A stretch of 36,514 bases of DNA from the NCBI GenBank assembly GCA_016194335.1, contig JACQBR010000018.1:1-36514 (forward strand), given 5' to 3'. The DNA is from Microcaldota archaeon (GTDB lineage Archaea > Micrarchaeota > Micrarchaeia > Norongarragalinales > UBA97). Every line of letters begins with the position of its first letter. Position 1 is the first letter of the stretch. A program made the position numbers and the translations under genes. Shown in pieces: positions 6,100-15,802 of this stretch. The notes under the pieces are model-generated. The model searched no databases, was not told the origin of the DNA, and saw nothing but the letters and a program-made list of their open reading frames with translations.

Positions 6100-6473
6100 G
6101 TGCGGGAGAAGAAGGCCGTACTCCGCTTTCTGTTGTCCACGACATTGGACTGATGCGGCTCTAAGGCCTTGCTCCAAGCGCGGCGCGTTTCATTCCCCGT
6201 CCCGCCAACGTCGCGTGAAAGCTCATCCTTCAGGCGAGGGGGATACCGTTTCTGTTCCGCGCTGCCGCCTCAAGCGGCGGGACTTTACGTCCCTACGAAA
6301 ACCCTTTCCGCACTTTTCTCGCAACTTTTGGTAAAGCTTTTCAAGCACCGCAGAACGCGAGCCATCAAGCGAGCGCTTCGAGGAGCGCAGAAAAGGTTTG
6401 GAGAGCGGAAGTTCCTCAGCCACGCCCTTTTGAAAGGGGCGCTACCGACAGTCGTGCACCAACTCTCCCGCAC
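6100..6473 (-). ncRNA. rnpB: RNase P RNA
   Basis: Catalytic RNA that trims tRNA 5' leaders. On the minus strand the 5' end GTGCGGGAGAG (6473 downward) pairs with the 3' end TTCTCCCGCAC (down to 6100), forming helix P1. Conserved regions follow in the right order: GGCTGAGGAACTTCCGCTC (CR-I type), AACAGAAACGGTA (middle CR), GGAATGAAACGC, GGAGCAAGGCC (CR-IV type) and ACAACAGAAAGCGGAGTAC (CR-V type). Length about 374 nt is at the upper part of the archaeal range. The segment about 6290-6400 is rich in repeated short G/C stem-forming words and may be an enlarged variable stem. Confidence 0.85.
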
Positions 6474-6503: not shown

Positions 6504-6583
6504 GGCCCGGGATCGAGTCGGATGGGCGCGAATGGAGAGTGAAAAAACCGCTTGACGGATTTCAAATTTTAGAAAAAGTAAAC

Positions 6584-6610
6584 GGGAGGAACCGAGAAAG
6601 TTTGCCTCCC
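6584..6610 (-). terminator. Hairpin terminator of unit A
   Basis: GGGAGG (6584-6589 as read on plus) pairs with CCTCCC (6605-6610); on the minus strand the hairpin is followed by a T-rich stretch (TTTACTTTTTC). Confidence 0.5.
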
Positions 6611-6649
6611 AAAAGGGGTTCTAAACCTTACTAGAAGATTGAACCGGAA

Positions 6650-6676
6650 TTATTTCTTCTTCTTTTTCTTCGCCAT
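6650..6676 (-). CDS. Putative oligolysine mini-ORF (copy A)
   Basis: ATG to TAA gives MAKKKKKK, eight residues. It is preceded by GGGTGA at ribosome-site distance and by TATA TTTAAA about 55-60 bp upstream, and followed by a terminator hairpin. The same peptide is kept in copy B although codons differ (GCG/GCA, AAA/AAG). It may be a translated micropeptide, a leader, or a by-product of an sRNA; I do not recognise a family. Confidence 0.4.
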   Translation of the reverse strand: MAKKKKKK

Positions 6677-6729
6677 TGCGGTTTATTCACCCGTGTAAGT
6701 TTTTGTTGCAAACATTACCAGTTTCTTGA

Positions 6730-6736
6730 ATTTAAA
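6730..6736 (-). promoter_or_regulatory. TATA box of unit A
   Basis: ATTTAAA read in the minus orientation as CCTTTAAATTC, 54-60 bp before the mini-ORF ATG. Confidence 0.5.
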
Positions 6737-6796
6737 GGTTTGCAGAAAAAAAACGCGGGTTTGGCAACGGGATGGGAAAAATAGGCGCGATTATGT

Positions 6797-6839
6797 AAAA
6801 AAAAGCGAAGGGAGGAAACGAAAAGGATTTTTCCCTCCC
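6797..6839 (-). terminator. Hairpin plus T-run terminator of unit B
   Basis: GGGAGG (6810-6815) pairs with CCTCCC (6834-6839), and on the minus strand the stem is followed by eight T residues (6797-6804). A clear termination-like signal. Confidence 0.6.
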
Positions 6840-6881
6840 GAAGGGGGTTAAATCTGATTTTGAGATTGCACTTCTCAAACT

Positions 6882-6908
6882 TTATTTCTTCTTCTTCTTC
6901 TTTGCCAT
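6882..6908 (-). CDS. Putative oligolysine mini-ORF (copy B)
   Basis: ATG to TAA encodes MAKKKKKK again, with mostly AAG codons. GGGGTGA precedes it. TATA (6962-6970) lies about 54-60 bp upstream, as in copy A. Confidence 0.4.
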   Translation of the reverse strand: MAKKKKKK

Positions 6909-6961
6909 TGCGGTGTATTCACCCCTTGGGGTTTTTTGTTGCACTAATCACCATTCCCTTG

Positions 6962-6970
6962 AATTTAAAT
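6962..6970. promoter_or_regulatory. Palindromic TATA shared by unit B and the SprT-like gene
   Basis: AATTTAAAT is symmetrical. On the minus strand it matches the TATA position of unit A; on the plus strand it is 37-45 bp before the ATG at 7007. Confidence 0.45.
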
Positions 6971-7006
6971 CTTTGCAAAGAGAAAACAATTGAACCGGGG
7001 TTAATC

Positions 7007-7741
7007 ATGGAAAATCAGTTGCTCAATGACAAAAATCTAGAAATGGCGGCCGCAAACGCGCTTTCCCTCCTTTCAAGAGGCGATTTGGACTGCGTCTCGC
7101 GCTTCTATCCCTACTCGGGGCTCAAGGCCACCGCGCGATTGAAGGGGAACACGATGACATTCAGGGCCAGCGACGGCTTCAAGGCCGCATCGCAGGACGC
7201 GCTCACTGGCCTGGCGTTGAATCTTTTCTGCAAAATCCTCAGGAGAAGCGATGGCGGGTTCGAACCTTACATCAAGGCGTACGAGGAATTTTCAAAAAGC
7301 GCATCGGCAGCGCGGCTTCACAACACAATACGGTCGGTTGAAGGAAAGAAAAAGCCGCTTGAACCAAAGGGCACGCATTACGACCTCAACGCAATAGTGG
7401 GGAAAGTTGCTGGAGAATATTGGCAGGTGTTTGACGGCGTGGAAATTCCCCACCCAACGTGGAGCGAATTCAAGGGAAGGCGGACTCTGGCTTTCCACGA
7501 CGGCGCGTTCGGCCGCATCACCGTAAGCGCGCTTTTCGACTCGCCTCGCGTGCCGCAATCTGTCCTGGAATATCTCGCCTACCACGAGATGCTCCACGCC
7601 AAGCACGACGTGAAGTACGCCAGGGGAAAAAGCATGCGCCGCACGGTGCACACCCACGCGTTCAAGCTGGACGAGAAAAAATTCGCCAAGTACGAAGAGG
7701 CGAACGGATGGATAAGCAGGAACTTGAGGTACTTAAGATAA
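7007..7741 (+). CDS. SprT-like zinc metalloprotein
   Basis: 244 residues from ATG 7007; the open frame extends to 6860, but that part overlaps unit B and its promoter. The C-terminal half contains YLAYHEMLHAKHDV, an HExxH zinc-binding helix (about residues 195-205), followed by a basic region (ARGKSMRRTVHTHAFKLDEKKF) with further histidines. This resembles SprT-like/WSS1-type minimal metallopeptidases, which in eukaryotes act on DNA-protein crosslinks. The N-terminal 100 residues match nothing I recognise. Neighbour 7766 is another DNA-repair-like gene, transcribed convergently. Confidence 0.65.
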   Translation: MENQLLNDKNLEMAAANALSLLSRGDLDCVSRFYPYSGLKATARLKGNTMTFRASDGFKAASQDALTGLALNLFCKILRRSDGGFEPYIKAYEEFSKSASAARLHNTIRSVEGKKKPLEPKGTHYDLNAIVGKVAGEYWQVFDGVEIPHPTWSEFKGRRTLAFHDGAFGRITVSALFDSPRVPQSVLEYLAYHEMLHAKHDVKYARGKSMRRTVHTHAFKLDEKKFAKYEEANGWISRNLRYLR

Positions 7742-9546: not shown

Positions 9547-9587
9547 TTTTGGGATCCGTTAGATGTAAAAATCAATCTAATGGACCT
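9547..9587 (-). other. 23S microintron beside U2585
   Basis: 41 nt. Central helix TTGG/CCAA, bulges GTA and AAT, inner helix GGTCCATTAGAT/ATCTAACGGATC. BHB cutting gives GTTAGTTGGGT+TCAGAACGTCG, matching the conserved GAGCUGGGUUUAGAACG with the junction between 2584 and 2585. Confidence 0.85.
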
Positions 9588-9607
9588 ACCCAACTAACGT
9601 GGGTCTT

Positions 9608-9648
9608 TCGTTATTTCCCCAAGATGCAATCTTGCGTCCTGAGGGAAC
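9608..9648 (-). other. 23S microintron near 2565
   Basis: About 41 nt. Central helix GTTA/TAAC, bulges AAG and GAA, inner stem TTCCC/GGGAA with CAAGA/TCTTG. The strict product is two bases longer than expected, so the exact ends are uncertain, but the region has no room for an insertion in a working peptidyl-transferase centre. Confidence 0.7.
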
Positions 9649-9736
9649 TTTAACGGATGAACAACCCGACCCTTGGCGGCTCCTGCACCGCCAGGATGAC
9701 CCGAGCCGATAGCGATGTATCAAACCGCGTCGTCGA

Positions 9737-9939
9737 TTAGTCCCTTTTAGGAAATAATCTTTCATTCGATGCGCCGATACCAGTTTATCCACGTTTTGTT
9801 GAAAGTCCCGAAATTCGGTTCCTCCATTGTGTATAGCCTTACTACAAATGTTTTGCAGTAAAGAAGCTCTTTTTATTGAAAGAACTTTACGGGATTTTCG
9901 AAGACGTTAAAACTGGCCGGCGCGTATTTCCCGAAAGAA
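9737..9939 (-). other. 23S BHB intron in helix 89 (about L2476)
   Basis: 203 nt, no ORF. Central helix AGTT/GACT, bulges CAT and AAT, 14-bp inner helix TCTTTCGGGAAATA/TATTTCCTAAAAGG with two mismatches. Joined product GAGAGTTCA+TCGACGACG corresponds to conserved AGAGUUCAUAUCGACGG, though two bases shorter. Confidence 0.8.
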
Positions 9940-10167
9940 TGAACTCTCGGACGCGACGAACCTGTTACCCCCAGGGTAGCTTGTCTGTCAGAAACGGCCC
10001 TCATTAATAGGGACACGTTTGTTCGTTAAGCCCCGCTTTCGCGCCTGCATCCCATTTTGTTAAGGATACAGTCAGTCGCACATTTGTCTTTGACCCTCTA
10101 CAGACGACTTCTGACCGTCTTGAGTGCAACTTTGGGCGCCTTTGTTTTCTTATCGAAGGCGTGCCGC

Positions 10168-10871
10168 TTGCTGGTCTCCGGAACTAGCCGGCAAGTTACC
10201 CCCCATTTGTTTAAAAACCCATTCAGAGATAGCAGATTATGAACGAAAACCAAGCGATGCTTGTCGCATTCCTCCTTTCGGACGGAAGCGTTTATTTCGA
10301 CAAATCCAAGAGGACATATTGCATCCAATTCACCAATAAGGTCGGAGCGCTTCTTGAAAAATTCATCTTCCTTATGCGCGAATGGTTTGCGCTTGAAAAT
10401 TTTAGAATCAACCATTGCGCTCGGGCAGAATCAATTCGTTTTTTCTCAAAGAATGCCGCGGATGAACTGTTTGCACTATCTCCAACCTACCGGACGCTCG
10501 TATTCCCGGACGGCACGTTTCCCAATGCCATCATTCCCCAAGAGATTATTGGGGATGAAAAGCTTGCAATTGCTTTTCTCAAGGCATTCGCCTCTTGCGA
10601 CGGCGGGATTGTTGTCAATCCCCCCGAAGGCCAGTACCGCATCGAACTCGCCTGCAGGCACCCCTCGCTCAAAAAACAATTGGGCGAGTTGCTTGCGAAA
10701 ACGGGATTCGAATGCGTCCTGACTAAAGAGCGCGTGATCGTCCGCGGAAAGGGGAACATCGTTAGGTATCTTGGAAAAATCGGCTTTCTAAACGAAAGCA
10801 CAATCTGCAAAAAATCTCTTCACTATGGACTTCCAAAAATGAAGGTGTTTTCTTTGCTAGTTCAGAAGACT
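10168..10871 (-). other. 23S BHB intron in the P loop (L2252)
   Basis: 704 nt. Central helix GCTG/CAGC, bulges GGA and AAG, inner helix GTCTTC-T-GAACTAGC/GCTAGTTC-C-GGAGAC. Cutting gives GTTTGGCTGGG+GCGGCACGCC, an exact fit to the conserved P-loop segment GUUUGACUGGGGCGGUCGCC. Contains an endonuclease gene on the opposite strand. Confidence 0.93.
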
Positions 10872-10922
10872 CCCAGCCAAACCACCCATCTGCAGCGGTC
10901 CTCCGCCGATGAGGCGAAGTAA
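10239..10922 (+). CDS. LAGLIDADG homing endonuclease antisense to 23S
   Basis: 227 residues on the plus strand, opposite to the rRNA. Motif 1 is AMLVAFLLSDGSV (residues 6-18) and motif 2 AIAFLKAFASCDGGIVV (about 111-127); spacing and length match double-motif LAGLIDADG enzymes. The frame reads on beyond the intron's 5' boundary (10871) and its last 17 residues are antisense to 23S exon. It cannot be translated from the rRNA precursor, so it needs its own promoter; none obvious is seen upstream, and no clear ribosome site precedes ATG 10239. Other ORFs on this strand are shadows, but the motifs make this one convincing. Confidence 0.88.
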   Translation: MNENQAMLVAFLLSDGSVYFDKSKRTYCIQFTNKVGALLEKFIFLMREWFALENFRINHCARAESIRFFSKNAADELFALSPTYRTLVFPDGTFPNAIIPQEIIGDEKLAIAFLKAFASCDGGIVVNPPEGQYRIELACRHPSLKKQLGELLAKTGFECVLTKERVIVRGKGNIVRYLGKIGFLNESTICKKSLHYGLPKMKVFSLLVQKTPSQTTHLQRSSADEAK

Positions 10923-11058
10923 GAAACGTCGTCAACACAGAGCAGTGTTACATTATCGCCTATTCCCGCCCCGAAAGACGGGACATAGCGGCTCCTGCTT
11001 ACTCTGGGCAATGCCAACAACGCTTCAACAACAGACTGTGGTTAAGCTCCATGGGGTC

Positions 11059-11097
11059 TTAACGCAAAACCAATGCGAAAAAACTGCATTGATCAGT
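11059..11097 (-). other. 23S microintron at the A2058-G2061 site
   Basis: 39 nt. Central helix AACG/CGTT, bulges AAA and AAG, inner CAATGC/GCATTG. Product AAACGAA+GACCCC has the same length as conserved ACGGAAAGACCCC; the junction falls between A2060 and G2061 in the exit tunnel. Confidence 0.78.
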
Positions 11098-11233
11098 TTC
11101 GTTTCCCCCTAGAAGTCCTCGGCATGTTCACCGAGTAGTAGGTTCACCAGGTCCAAGACAGGGACAGCTGGACACTCGTTACGCCATTCATGCAAGCCGC
11201 CAATTAAGCGGCGAGGTATTACGCTACCTTAAG

Positions 11234-11945
11234 CAAATCATTTTCAGAATTTAGAAAACGTTGGACTATATCTTCGCCGTTTGGTTTTCCGGCGTTCGGC
11301 TTGTAGTCTCTGAGGCGTCCGCCTTGCGCGCTTGAATCGCTTCAAGCACCTGCTCGAGGGAATATCTCCGTTGCTTGCCGTTCATGTTCATTTGAAACGC
11401 CAAGCGCGTGAGTTCTTCCAAACCCTTGAGCGTGGAGTGTTTTTTCGCTTCAAGCCCAAGCACAATCTCTCTAAACAGGAGGTAATCCCCTGATTTCACG
11501 ATTGGCTTGTACTTGTCGAAGAACGGAATGACTTTCTCCACCAACTGCCGCCTGTTGTCCACCATGAACTGCATGGTGTCAGGCTGGCCCGGCTTTTCCA
11601 TCACCCTGCCGCACGTGAACGCCCGCTTGAACAACTCAAGCACATCAGCGTGCGTGCGGTGTTGGGTGACGTGGAACATTGGGTCAAGCGCAAAGCCGAA
11701 TCTTGTGGTGGGCTCTTTCTTGAGAGAGACGCAAAAACACCCCTCCCCGTCTGAAAAACCCAGCAGGTAATACCTTAGGTATTTCATCCTGCCAATTGCG
11801 ATTGACCTTGCCATTCCGTTCAACACTCCAGTAAAGCGGTTCCCTGCTGATTATCCTTCACAATCATGCGTTTTATTCCTTTCTCAGGAAACGCATTAAT
11901 CTGGATTTCCCAGCATATAGCCGAATTCGACAGACCCTTAAGTTG
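11234..11945 (-). other. Group I intron in 23S at L1923
   Basis: 712 nt. Group I hallmarks on the minus strand: 5' exon ends in T and the intron ends in G; exon AGACT pairs with internal guide GGTCT (U-G at the cut, P1); CTATATGCTGGGAAATCC (P/Q region), CTCAGAGACTACAAGC (R) and AAGATATAGTCC (S), with GACTA/TAGTC forming P7. Joined exons give GAGACT+CTTAAGGTAGCG. By alignment the site follows U1923, the position of the algal intron encoding I-CeuI. Confidence 0.92.
11266..11826 (-). CDS. Single-motif LAGLIDADG endonuclease in group I intron
   Basis: 186 residues (ATG 11826; a Met at residue 5 or 14 is also possible). One LAGLIDADG motif (YYLLGFSDGEGCFCVSL, about residues 19-35), like I-CreI/I-CeuI, which act as homodimers. 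Body: FVSLKKEPTT-type strands, HVTQHRTHADVLELF, QPDTMQFMVDNRRQLVEKVIPFFDKY, which fits the family. The C-terminal tail (ETTSRTPENQTAKI) is encoded by the ribozyme core itself: the R element gives ETTS and the stop TAG is within the S element. Confidence 0.92.
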   Translation of the reverse strand: MLNGMARSIAIGRMKYLRYYLLGFSDGEGCFCVSLKKEPTTRFGFALDPMFHVTQHRTHADVLELFKRAFTCGRVMEKPGQPDTMQFMVDNRRQLVEKVIPFFDKYKPIVKSGDYLLFREIVLGLEAKKHSTLKGLEELTRLAFQMNMNGKQRRYSLEQVLEAIQARKADASETTSRTPENQTAKI

Positions 11946-12155
11946 AGTCTCAGAGTTAGACCCGCTCTTTAGCAGCCCTTTGCCAGGTTGTAACCCGGTT
12001 TGAGGTACTGCCAGTGAGCAGGCGTCGGCCTCCGTATATAGCGTTTCCACCTTGCGGAGACCTGTGTTTTTGCTAAACAGTCGATGTCCTCTGGTCACTG
12101 CGACCTACTAACAACCCATCAAACTTGCGCTCTTTGGGCCGAAAGTAGGCACCCC

Positions 12156-12872
12156 TTATCCCGAAGTTACGGGGCTAATTTGCCGAATTCCCTTGCCTTG
12201 GTTCTCCTGCCACGTCTTAGCTTGTTCAGCCAGGGGCACCTGTACTGGTTTTACCGAATCTTTTGTGAACGAATTTTTTGAAAACTTTCGTACCTTCTGG
12301 AAATGCCAACAACCGATTTGATCAAAATATTTTTCGGCACTGGTTCCGTAAAGATCAAGACGATACATCGTACACCGGTATATTTTGTCGGACGTTGGAA
12401 CCCGAGACTTTTCAATCGCTTCACCAACCGTGTGGTGGATTCCAAATTCCGTCAGAACTCTACTCACGTCATCACGGAGTTTTTTGCTCCGCACTCGCAA
12501 GCGAATTCTCGGCTTTCCGTCGGAATCGAAGAAAACGACCCCGTCACAGCCGATTACACCGTTGACGAAATCTTTCCACTCCGACTTTGCGACGCAGCTG
12601 GGCATACTTATTATTTCGGCTTTTCTTCCAACGGGAAGGCCAAATTCTTGCGTGAGTTGCAGCCACATTTTCTTTGATTGCACGTAAACGACGTAACGAT
12701 TGCCGCGCTTTTTTATGTGCGGCGTTACGCCGAATATTCGTGCGACCAGTTCGGCTACGAACTTTGCGGCTTCCTCGTCCTCATCGCAGAACTCCCACCA
12801 ATACACGTTTTTACGCGCGTATTTTGGAAGGCTGCCATCGCCACAATGTATGCCCAAAAACAAGCCGTACAT
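12156..12872 (-). CDS. LAGLIDADG homing endonuclease in 23S intron near L1650
   Basis: 238 residues from ATG 12872. Motif 1 YGLFLGIHCGDGSL (residues 2-15) and a degenerate motif 2 FVNGVIGCDGVVFF (about 101-114). The middle (RNRYVVYVQSKKMW-type strands, IRLRVRSKKLRDDVSRVLTEFGI) fits a double-motif enzyme. Only about the first 207 residues are intron encoded; the last 31 (for example QVPLAEQAKTWQENQ) are translated from 23S exon downstream of the splice site at 12251. Confidence 0.88.
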   Translation of the reverse strand: MYGLFLGIHCGDGSLPKYARKNVYWWEFCDEDEEAAKFVAELVARIFGVTPHIKKRGNRYVVYVQSKKMWLQLTQEFGLPVGRKAEIISMPSCVAKSEWKDFVNGVIGCDGVVFFDSDGKPRIRLRVRSKKLRDDVSRVLTEFGIHHTVGEAIEKSRVPTSDKIYRCTMYRLDLYGTSAEKYFDQIGCWHFQKVRKFSKNSFTKDSVKPVQVPLAEQAKTWQENQGKGIRQISPVTSG

Positions 12873-12919
12873 ACCTTACTATACGAAAGTTTCCTTTAAA
12901 ATGATTCACAAAAGAGTTT
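12251..12919 (-). other. 23S BHB intron near L1650
   Basis: 669 nt. Central helix ACCG/CGGT, bulges AGA and AAA, long inner helix TCTTTTGTGAA/TTCACAAAAGA continuing to CTTTCGTA/TACGAAAG. Product CGTACCGAG+AACCAGTACAGG equals the conserved CGUACCCCAAACCGACACAGG in length. Carries endonuclease 12156-12872. Confidence 0.88.
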
Positions 12920-13679
12920 CTCGGTACGGGCTCCAAACAGGATTTTTACACCATTTTCAGGGGCTTATGGACTCGTCCCACCTTTCGGCCATTCGAGACT
13001 TGAAGTCGTGCTCCTCTCAACGAGACTTCCGACTCCTGGTTCTCTTAGATGCGCTCTCGCGCACAGGAACTATCCGCAAGCGTCTGATGCAAACTTGCGT
13101 TGCCGCACTCCGTTTGAAGGCACCCGAATATTAACGGGTTTCCCTTTCGTCCTACACGATTGCGTTTGGACTTAGGACCGGCTGACTCTAGTTCGACTAG
13201 CGTTGACTAGAAACCCTTGCCCTTTCGACGTCCAGGATTCTCGCCTGGATTAGATGCTACTAGCACCAGGATTTTCGTTGCGAGCCGCTCCACAGGACCT
13301 CACGGCCCTGCTTCGAGGCAACCCGCACGCCCTCCTACTCAATCACCACCCACTGGTGGTGTGCTGCAGTGTCGGTGAATTGCTTAGTCCCGGTAGTCTG
13401 CGACGCCGCGAACCTTGACGGGTCCGCTGTTACGCGTTGTTTAACGGATGGCAGCTTCTGTTCCTCGGCCGCCACGCCGCCGTTACAAACTTGCATTCGG
13501 CGGCGTGTCGTCTACCGCCCCGCTGTCTGCGGAACACGACGTCTTTCTGAGTAACACTCAGCAATTTCTTAGGGACCTTAACTGCAGTAGGGGTCGTTCC
13601 CCTCTCGCCGTCCGCGCTTAACTCGGACTGGCCGACTCCCACCTTCTACGGCGGCAGTAGCTTCGGAGTTTCGTCGAAT

Positions 13680-13747
13680 CTTTTCCGTGAACGCTTTTCG
13701 CAATCGCGAGCGTTGTCGCGACGGAATAGCGAGCGATTGCGGAAAAG
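13680..13747 (-). repeat. Hairpin insertion in 23S
   Basis: CTTTTCCG (13680) and CGGAAAAG (ending 13747) enclose CGCAATCGC/GCGATTGCG. It looks like an extra stem within 23S. It lacks a BHB shape, so it is more likely a retained expansion than an intron. Its left arm resembles 14975-14999. Confidence 0.5.
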
Positions 13748-14763
13748 GGTTCTTTGACAAGGACGTGAGGATTTTACTCCCCGGTCGTCCGAATCGGTAG
13801 CTCTACCTACTGCCTGCCTCTAGTGGGGCTGTACTGCGGTACACTTCGGAGGGAACCCGCTATCGCCGCACTCGTATGGACTTTCACCCCTACACGCACG
13901 TCACCCAAGGGGATAGACCACCACTGGTTGCGGGCTTCCACCATTCGTAAGAACGGCTTCACCCTGCGCGCGCGTAGTTCGTTGCGGCTTCGGGTCTTAC
14001 ACGAGTGACTTGGGGCCAGTTACGACCCCCTCCCTGGCCGCTTGCGCGGTTGCGGAGAATAATCGCTTTCGCTTCGCTCAATGCTAAACGCCACTCCCGT
14101 AAACTCCCTGGCTCTTGCTTCAAGAAGGACGACGGAACGCCGTAGGCCTTGCGGCCCCTTTATCGCCCCGTCTTCTTGTCGCCACTCAGTTTCAGGCTCT
14201 TTGCACTGGCCTTTCGGCTTTCTTTGCAACTTTCGCTCACGCTACTTGATACGCTATCGGTCTTGGGTTATATTTTAGGGTTGCAAGTTGAATGACTCGC
14301 AATTTCACGCCGCCATGCCAGGCGACGCTACTCTGGAATCCGGCTCAGGCGAACTCACTTTGCCTACGCGGCTGTCACGCTCTTTGACGCGACTTTCCAA
14401 TCGTCTTCGGCTCGCGAATCCGCCTTAAATGCCGGTCCGACAACCCCACATCTGCACCCGCCTTGCAGCGGGGCATTCGGTTTGCCCTGAATTCGCCGCT
14501 TTCGTTCGCACTACTCACGGCATCCCGGTTGGTTTCTTTTCCTCCGCTTACTAAGATATTTCAATTCAGCGGGTGGTGCTCTCCTCTCGGAGCGGTTAGG
14601 GAATCTCGGGTTTACGGGCTGCATACGCCTACCCCGAGCTTTTCGCAGTTAGCCACGCCCTTCGTCGCTACCCAAGCCTAGTCATCCACTGAGTGGCTTA
14701 AAGCTAGCAGCTCTAAACTTTCCTACTCGGCCTCCCTCCACCCTTGCGGATGGAAAAAGGCCT

Positions 14764-15055: not shown

Positions 15056-15184
15056 TGGACTCGGTGGGATTTGAACCCACGACCTCCTGCTTGCAAAGCA
15101 GGCGCGCTTTAGCGAATTACGCTCGCGCCCCCACTTGCGTTGGTCGTGGGGCTCAAACGCCTTTTGCCACTGCGCTACGAGCCC
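15056..15184 (-). tRNA. tRNA-Ala(TGC) with an intron in the D loop
   Basis: Acceptor GGGCTCG/CGAGTCC plus A, anticodon arm CCTGC-TTTGCAA-GCAGG, T arm GTGGG-TTCAAAT-CCCAC are intact. Between D-stem strands GCGC (15172-15175) and GCGC (15104-15107) lie 64 nt in place of a normal 8-10. Removing about 54 nt (roughly 15112-15166) leaves AGTGGCTAAA as D loop and a 75-nt tRNA. The insert folds by CCCCAC/GTGGGG and CGTTTG/CGAGCG. The strict BHB form would delete the D loop, so exact ends are open. Location in the 16S-23S spacer is classic. Confidence 0.88.
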
Positions 15185-15357: not shown

Positions 15358-15685
15358 CACGTTGTTCCACATGTCGCCATGCGGCGTGGACTATATCTTC
15401 ATCTTGAATTTCTCCAAGAGCCTCGCTTGTAGTCTCTGAGGTGTCCGTTAAGGTACATCTACATGACGGAAAGAAATGGGTTCTTGTCTAATGCACAAAT
15501 CCAATGTGCCTCAGCGACAACCTAAATGCCATGATACTTGTACCCGTGTCACGCCGTTGAGCGTTAACGGTTCCCTGCTGATAGACCCCACTTCAACCGT
15601 TGCCAGTTGAAGATGCTTTAGGGTTGTTCCAGCATATAGCGAAGTTTTTCCGCAATCTCTCAACTGCGGGTCGCAACAAATGTTT
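15358..15685 (-). other. Group I intron in 16S after U1498
   Basis: 328 nt, no ORF. Exon GTCGT pairs with guide GCGAC (U-G at the cut), the intron ends in G, and CGCTATATGCTGGAACAACCC, CTCAGAGACTACAAGC (R) and GAAGATATAGTCC (S) are present in order. Joined exons give AAGTCGT+AACAAGGTAACC exactly. The core is clearly related to the L1923 intron. Confidence 0.93.
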
Positions 15686-15802
15686 ACGACTTAATCCTCC
15701 TCACGAAGCTCTAGCTCGACATGCCCGTAGGGCAAGCCTCACTAAAACCTCGCTCGGATGACTTGACGGGCGGTGTGTGCAAGGAGCGGGGACATATTGG
15801 TG

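Follow-up and report, generated by a model that had tools for sequence, protein, structure and literature searches.

Two tandem units on the minus strand of the window (the whole stretch analysed, 36,514 nt of contig JACQBR010000018.1, assembly GCA_016194335.1) each carry an eight-codon ORF for the peptide MAKKKKKK. The units probably encode very short polycationic peptides that mark the lower size limit of basic proteins resembling H1 tails and that would bind nucleic acid by charge. Each is best explained as a stand-alone putative gene with a TATA box, a Shine-Dalgarno (SD) sequence, an 8-codon ORF and a T-rich 3' end, and we strongly infer that the ORFs are translated. The host is a Micrarchaeota MAG sharing its GTDB order with LFW-144_1 'Ca. 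Norongarragalina meridionalis' (PMC8561730). A divergent gene of 244 codons borders the units on one side and the RNase P RNA gene on the other, as follows.

7007..7741, plus strand: neighbouring gene in divergent orientation, 244 aa, with an HEMLH motif and a SprT-like look by eye; synteny anchor, outside the unit
6958..6969, minus strand: TATA-box region TTTAAATTCAAG of the upstream copy, one of only two occurrences in the window
6919..6925, minus strand: SD sequence GGGGTGA of the upstream copy, from sequence
6882..6908, minus strand: micro-ORF MAKKKKKK* of the upstream copy (ATGGCAAAGAAGAAGAAGAAGAAATAA), an exact match in the pattern search
6797..6881, minus strand: 3' region of the upstream copy, with hairpins TTTGAGA/TCTCAAA and GGGAGGG/CCTCCC and a T-run at 6804-6797; fold -18.9 kcal/mol, z -1.6
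6725..6736, minus strand: TATA-box region TTTAAATTCAAG of the downstream copy, the other occurrence
6687..6692, minus strand: SD sequence GGGTGA of the downstream copy, from sequence
6650..6676, minus strand: micro-ORF MAKKKKKK* of the downstream copy (ATGGCGAAGAAAAAGAAGAAGAAATAA)
6573..6649, minus strand: 3' region of the downstream copy, with two hairpins and a T-run at 6577-6573; fold -19.9 kcal/mol, z -1.6
6106..6467, minus strand: archaeal RNase P RNA (RF00373, 75.3 bits, E 1e-20, just under the gathering score)

An earlier note had described tandem MAKKKKKK units with a common TATA box and GGGTGA, and both copies were confirmed on the minus strand (6908-6882 and 6676-6650), their start codons 232 nt apart. 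The two units share 74% identity across ~188 nt (alignment E = 7e-25). The TATA-region word occurs twice in the window, both times at the units, against 0.04 expected, and GGGTGA lies 10 nt 5' of the ATG in both. The ORFs differ only by GCA/GCG and AAG/AAA, so that the peptide is unchanged and the silent Ala and Lys codon differences reported before hold. The span first given, 6570-6980, was corrected to ~6570-6990 because of the position of the upstream TATA box. A hairpin terminator with a T-run had also been proposed; each copy indeed has two 3' hairpins and T-runs, but the intrinsic-terminator scan of the units returned no consensus site, as is expectable for archaea. Rfam held no family matching the units themselves, and no further exact copy was found in the host genome (1.18 Mb, 85% complete). 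The RNase P RNA 3' of the units has its own TATA-like sequence and lies outside the unit.

Other features of the window were observed in passing. The 7007-7741 gene has a metallopeptidase-like HEMLH motif, and its sole Pfam match, to TROVE, falls below threshold. The match to the archaeal 23S rRNA model stretches over ~5.1 kb (9560-14713, minus strand) where 3 kb would be expected, indicating that the gene holds large insertions or introns. A group I intron (RF00028, 57 bits; 15367-15695, minus strand) lies between a tRNA (15056-15130) and the 16S rRNA; introns of this type are uncommon among archaea.

The same locus was compared across the order by synteny. The query for the genome search was the protein of the divergent neighbour rather than the ORF, and the opposite strand upstream of the neighbour gene was then read. 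The neighbour gene was found in 18 of 29 genomes, and its divergent site in relatives carried SD-led basic micro-ORFs of 8 to 34 residues, as listed here (all with SD).

Window genome: MAKKKKKK twice
Relative G002: MAAKKKKKK
Relative G004: MAAKKKKAKKK, GTG start
Relative G005: MAAKKKKK then MAAKKKAKKKK, both taken from other steps of the analysis than this reading
Relative G008: MAKKKATKSKAKKKK
Relative G013: MAKKKKKKKK then MMKKKKKK
Relative G014: MKKKKKKKK then MKKKKKKK
Relative G017: the 34-residue MPARKRKTVKKKATKRKAKKRTVKRKTAKKKRKR

G013 has the sequence of the LFW-144_1 MAG (L036 = L064), which is what ties the order of the host to that MAG. The long end of this series, MPARKRKTVKKKATKRKAKKRTVKRKTAKKKRKR, looks like a linker-histone tail. 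Other members of the order had no unit at the neighbour-gene site; what adjoins the neighbour gene there is, by eye, an apparent RNase P RNA in L189 and L178 and an apparent pyrE in L183, L184 and L188. Beyond close relatives, the similarity of the unit flanks was no better than that of shuffled sequence, a few upstream regions excepted, and the sequence of the 3' regions of the window units was not conserved across genera. An sRNA-only reading therefore fails in archaea, since the flanks diverge across genera while the ORF persists.

Units of the same kind occur in Levybacteria-type CPR bacteria. There they are flanked by serS and secA (genes recognised by eye) and have a promoter of the TTGACA type; a conserved element TTGGTAA...TTACCAATTGATCARTTGGTAA and then a terminator follow on the 3' side. 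The 3' element alone was searched in 329 genomes of the class. Every one of the 24 genuine sites with upstream DNA had an SD-led basic micro-ORF, and 19 of them were new relative to the ORF scan (author's count). The peptides include MAKKRKKKGKR, MAKKKAKKKK, MPAKKKAKKAKKK, MARKKAKRKKRKKRKK and MAAKAKKRTTKKTATKRTTKKRK, with residue totals of K160, A32, R15, T6, P3, S1 and G1 and no D or E.

These sites bear on the improbable alternative that the product is an sRNA or dual-function RNA, with the ORF incidental or governing RNA stability only. Such a reading would account for the strongly conserved CPR hairpin and palindrome after the ORF, and for the 3' hairpins of the window copies. A broken ORF beside conserved RNA, which the earlier note had named as its refutation, was found at none of the 24 CPR sites, and in two units (L128 and L141) it is the first stem that was lost and the ORF that was retained. 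Length also changes in whole codons and Lys and Arg are swapped, and between archaeal genera the peptide is conserved without its flanks. Together with the ribosome site, the start codon and the in-frame conservation at loci located blind to the ORF, this strongly supports the translated oligolysine micropeptide that had been suggested, over the sRNA offered beside it.

The palindrome is an observation in its own right. It is near-perfect over 22 bp (TTACCAATTGATCARTTGGTAA) and is conserved, together with a variable stem, after the stop of the micro-ORF and before the terminator, on the upstream side of secA (seen in L121-L145 and L041-L070, e.g. L143:1479-1522). It could form an RNA hairpin or kissing loop or be a protein-binding site, and the 3' element perhaps has a regulatory role, perhaps acting on the peptide mRNA.

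A lysine-codon run followed by hairpins also recalls a leader peptide, or a lysyl-tRNA or ribosome-stalling sensor for the downstream gene, as was suggested before. The CPR arrangement would suit this, with secA directly downstream on the same strand and a stop-codon-proximal TTGGTAA that could pair alternatively. Most archaeal units, however, are followed by a gene on the opposite strand, and the following gene is as a rule convergent or served by a promoter of its own; the next same-strand elements in the window are the second copy and then the RNase P RNA. Arg freely replaces Lys in many units, which also speaks against a lysine sensor, and we regard this explanation as very unlikely.

Selection on the peptide was examined by codon position, in the last five codons of 34 distinct archaeal units recovered with a pattern that did not discriminate between positions 2 and 3. 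G occupied position 3 at 97 of 170 codons and position 2 at 23 of 170, a difference with p ~2e-17 if sites are independent, an assumption that overstates the significance. Lys to Arg changes are common among the units, while Lys to Glu is absent from every accepted unit. AAR to GAR (Lys to Glu) is one transition, as is Lys to Arg. The missing Glu is informative for the CPR and synteny sets, the archaeal pattern itself having barred GAR in the last five codons. Archaeal residue totals were K264, A72, R47 and T8, the only E belonging to one ORF of doubtful status, MKERRKIS. The peptides are 7-11 residues long as a rule and 7-34 overall. The exchange of Lys and Arg and the preference for G at position 3 rather than 2 reveal selection for a basic peptide, and the conserved property is, as judged from these patterns, charge and not lysine as such.

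The distribution was surveyed with a global scan for an SD, MA...K5 and a stop over 84,980 genomes, which gave 33 loci; the in-frame loci were almost only from DPANN archaea and Levybacteria-type CPR bacteria. In the Aenigmatarchaeota class (156 genomes), a pattern that equally permitted A or G at codon positions 2 and 3 detected 25 stand-alone in-frame units, often two or three per genome. An SD, which the search did not require, preceded 22 of the 25, against 11% of all ATGs. Their peptides include MAKKKKKKR, MAKRRKK, MAKKKRRK, MAKKRKRK and MAKRRRK. Nanoarchaeia (234 genomes) had a handful, e.g. MAKKKKKR, MAAKKRKR, MAKKRKK, MAAKKKRKK, MAKKKKK and MAKKKKKKK, and in the 272 genomes of other Micrarchaeia no convincing unit was found. 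The counts of these pattern surveys are lower bounds, with members richer in Ala/Thr or in CGN codons missed. The micropeptide is not essential everywhere, as no unit was detectable in many genomes of its own order and class.

Some matches were set aside. The MARGG[KR]5 matches in Nanoarchaeia were rejected as units, being in-frame C-terminal tails of a ~40-residue protein (...KRKPGYLYYVDGKGNVCEAKMARGGKKKKK). Out-of-frame matches were also excluded (MAEEKK... starts of ordinary genes, Terribacillus, and others). Viral contigs gave only two matches, one following a set of genes of the phage lysis type, the other apparently within a longer frame. The ~40-residue Nanoarchaeia protein is itself a conserved small protein ending ...YLYYVDGKGNVCEAKMARGG[KR]5, that is, in RGG and a basic tail (L149, L154, L156, L167, L171, L172 and L173, near 1501).

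Low-complexity tracts arise easily, and chance or a simple AAG repeat without product was therefore weighed. It is the least credible of the explanations. Armatimonadota gave three in-frame matches in 291 genomes (~1.1 Gb, the sum of listed sizes), whereas Aenigmatarchaeota have about one per 5 Mb. A possible Armatimonadota unit, L045, has an SD but lies inside a longer open frame. SD, TATA and stop context recur, and the synteny found without the ORF also stands against chance.

Tandem pairs were found at eight loci in three DPANN groups, with the two units 73-205 nt apart on one strand; besides the window, a second unit in tandem was found in G005, G006, G013, G014, G372, G384 and G970. Several pairs combine an oligolysine with a longer H1-like peptide, e.g. 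MAAKKRKR then MAARRRASSARKKTTARKTARRRR. Tandem duplication recurs in this putative family. Directly upstream of MAKKKKKR in G006 (L015:1371-1427) lies MACGCCGPKKKKRAKKKK, with a Cys-rich head and a basic tail, possibly a metal-binding variant of the family.

The micropeptide occurs in archaeal relatives, and the CPR units show that it is not restricted to archaea. A homopolymer carries too little information to demonstrate homology between the archaeal and CPR units, which may well have arisen independently by convergence.

By composition, the nearest known counterparts are the bacterial H1-like lysine-rich proteins, namely Chlamydia Hc1/Hc2, Bordetella BpH1 and Pseudomonas AlgP (PMC2848022, PMC9239181), and a protein of Methanomassiliicoccales that is rich in lysine, 74 residues long and a candidate nucleoid component (PMC7613761). 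The H1-like proteins likewise combine K/R with A, T and P in a basic domain of variable length without acidic residues. The micropeptides show this composition (K/R with A/T/P/S, no acidic residues), and that of the longer member MPARKRKTVKKKATKRKAKKRTVKRKTAKKKRKR is the same. In length they differ by an order of magnitude, 7-34 residues against ~100 or more (165-237 in Hc2), and unlike the H1-like proteins they mostly measure 7-11 residues, often consist of nothing but Lys behind the Met-Ala, and are frequently encoded in tandem. Nucleic-acid binding is known for the H1-like proteins and would be expected by analogy of the micropeptides. The Methanomassiliicoccales protein is also small, basic, lysine-rich and archaeal and a proposed DNA organiser, but it is nine times longer and from an unrelated lineage, and the likeness noted is compositional. 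Eukaryotic histones and some archaeal histones bear basic tails (PMC6136690), which share with the micropeptides a short, basic, lysine-rich character and, presumably, contact with DNA; the micropeptides differ in being separate genes, unattached to a histone fold.

At E 5, neither Pfam nor NCBIfam matched the 34-mer and 23-mer members, and the 8-mers fall below the 20-residue limit of the profile search. A literature search, with preprints and most subscription journals outside its scope, returned nothing on point for microproteins that are rich in lysine or built of oligolysine, whether from archaea, CPR or DPANN, and no mention of MAKKKKKK. The recurrence of such units in DPANN archaea and one CPR group points to an overlooked family of putatively encoded polycations, for which no prior description was found in that search. 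Gene finders skip ORFs so short, so that such genes are invisible to annotation.

The main rival to nucleic-acid compaction is a ribosomal partner, that is, a ribosome- or rRNA-associated micropeptide with a role like that of eL41 or bTHX, not associated with the chromosome. Those are likewise tiny basic proteins from their own genes, of about 25-37 residues and conserved sequence. The MA- start, the high basic charge and the small independent genes fit a ribosomal role, as do the occurrence in reduced-genome lineages with slimmed ribosomes and the neighbours (RNase P RNA in the window, serS and secA in CPR). However, the sequence of eL41 and bTHX is conserved, whereas the units vary freely in length and residue order (7-34 residues of K/R/A/T), are present in one to three copies and are patchily distributed rather than single-copy and near-universal in a lineage as ribosomal proteins are. 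We therefore consider a ribosomal role unlikely.

A secreted or host-directed cationic peptide, cell-penetrating or antimicrobial-like, of episymbiotic cells was judged very improbable. DPANN and CPR are mostly host-attached, and oligo-Lys/Arg peptides of the length of these units are cell-penetrating. No signal or export sequence and no linked transporter or processing gene was seen, however, and longer H1-tail-like members occupy the same locus.

In the preferred reading, a nucleic-acid-binding polycation, the presumed target is nucleic acid; the peptide would be abundant and would neutralise or compact it. The mature peptide after Met removal would be Ala-Lys6. Oligolysine would act by charge alone, through electrostatic binding to DNA or RNA, with nucleoid or RNA compaction or charge neutralisation as the outcome. 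The basic micropeptides would then stand at the far end of reduction among disordered, lysine-rich proteins of the H1-tail type. The peptide might also serve as a 'tail in trans' for host histones, which seemingly have little or no tail. The open frame around the best histone match of the window genome is just 67 aa long, so that such a detached basic tail is conceivable. Histone presence was tried as an explanation of the unit distribution and was uninformative; 27 of the 29 genomes of the order have histones, which occur with and without the unit and show no complementary distribution.

More tentatively, the units may constitute a new gene class of DPANN and CPR, the smallest known dedicated nucleic-acid-binding proteins, with oligolysines acting as polyamine-like or detached-histone-tail polycations. 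If translated, they would rank with the smallest protein genes that stand alone; their product, nearly a homopolymer, would be under selection solely for its charge, and they would offer a testable example of the minimal sequence need for a functional protein. They would also be a gene class that annotation pipelines overlook by design and a candidate missing part of DPANN/CPR chromatin or RNA packaging. Such a gene would have persisted in, or been invented anew by, two separate lineages of ultra-small cells associated with hosts, and an independent origin in archaea and CPR would argue for a shared need.
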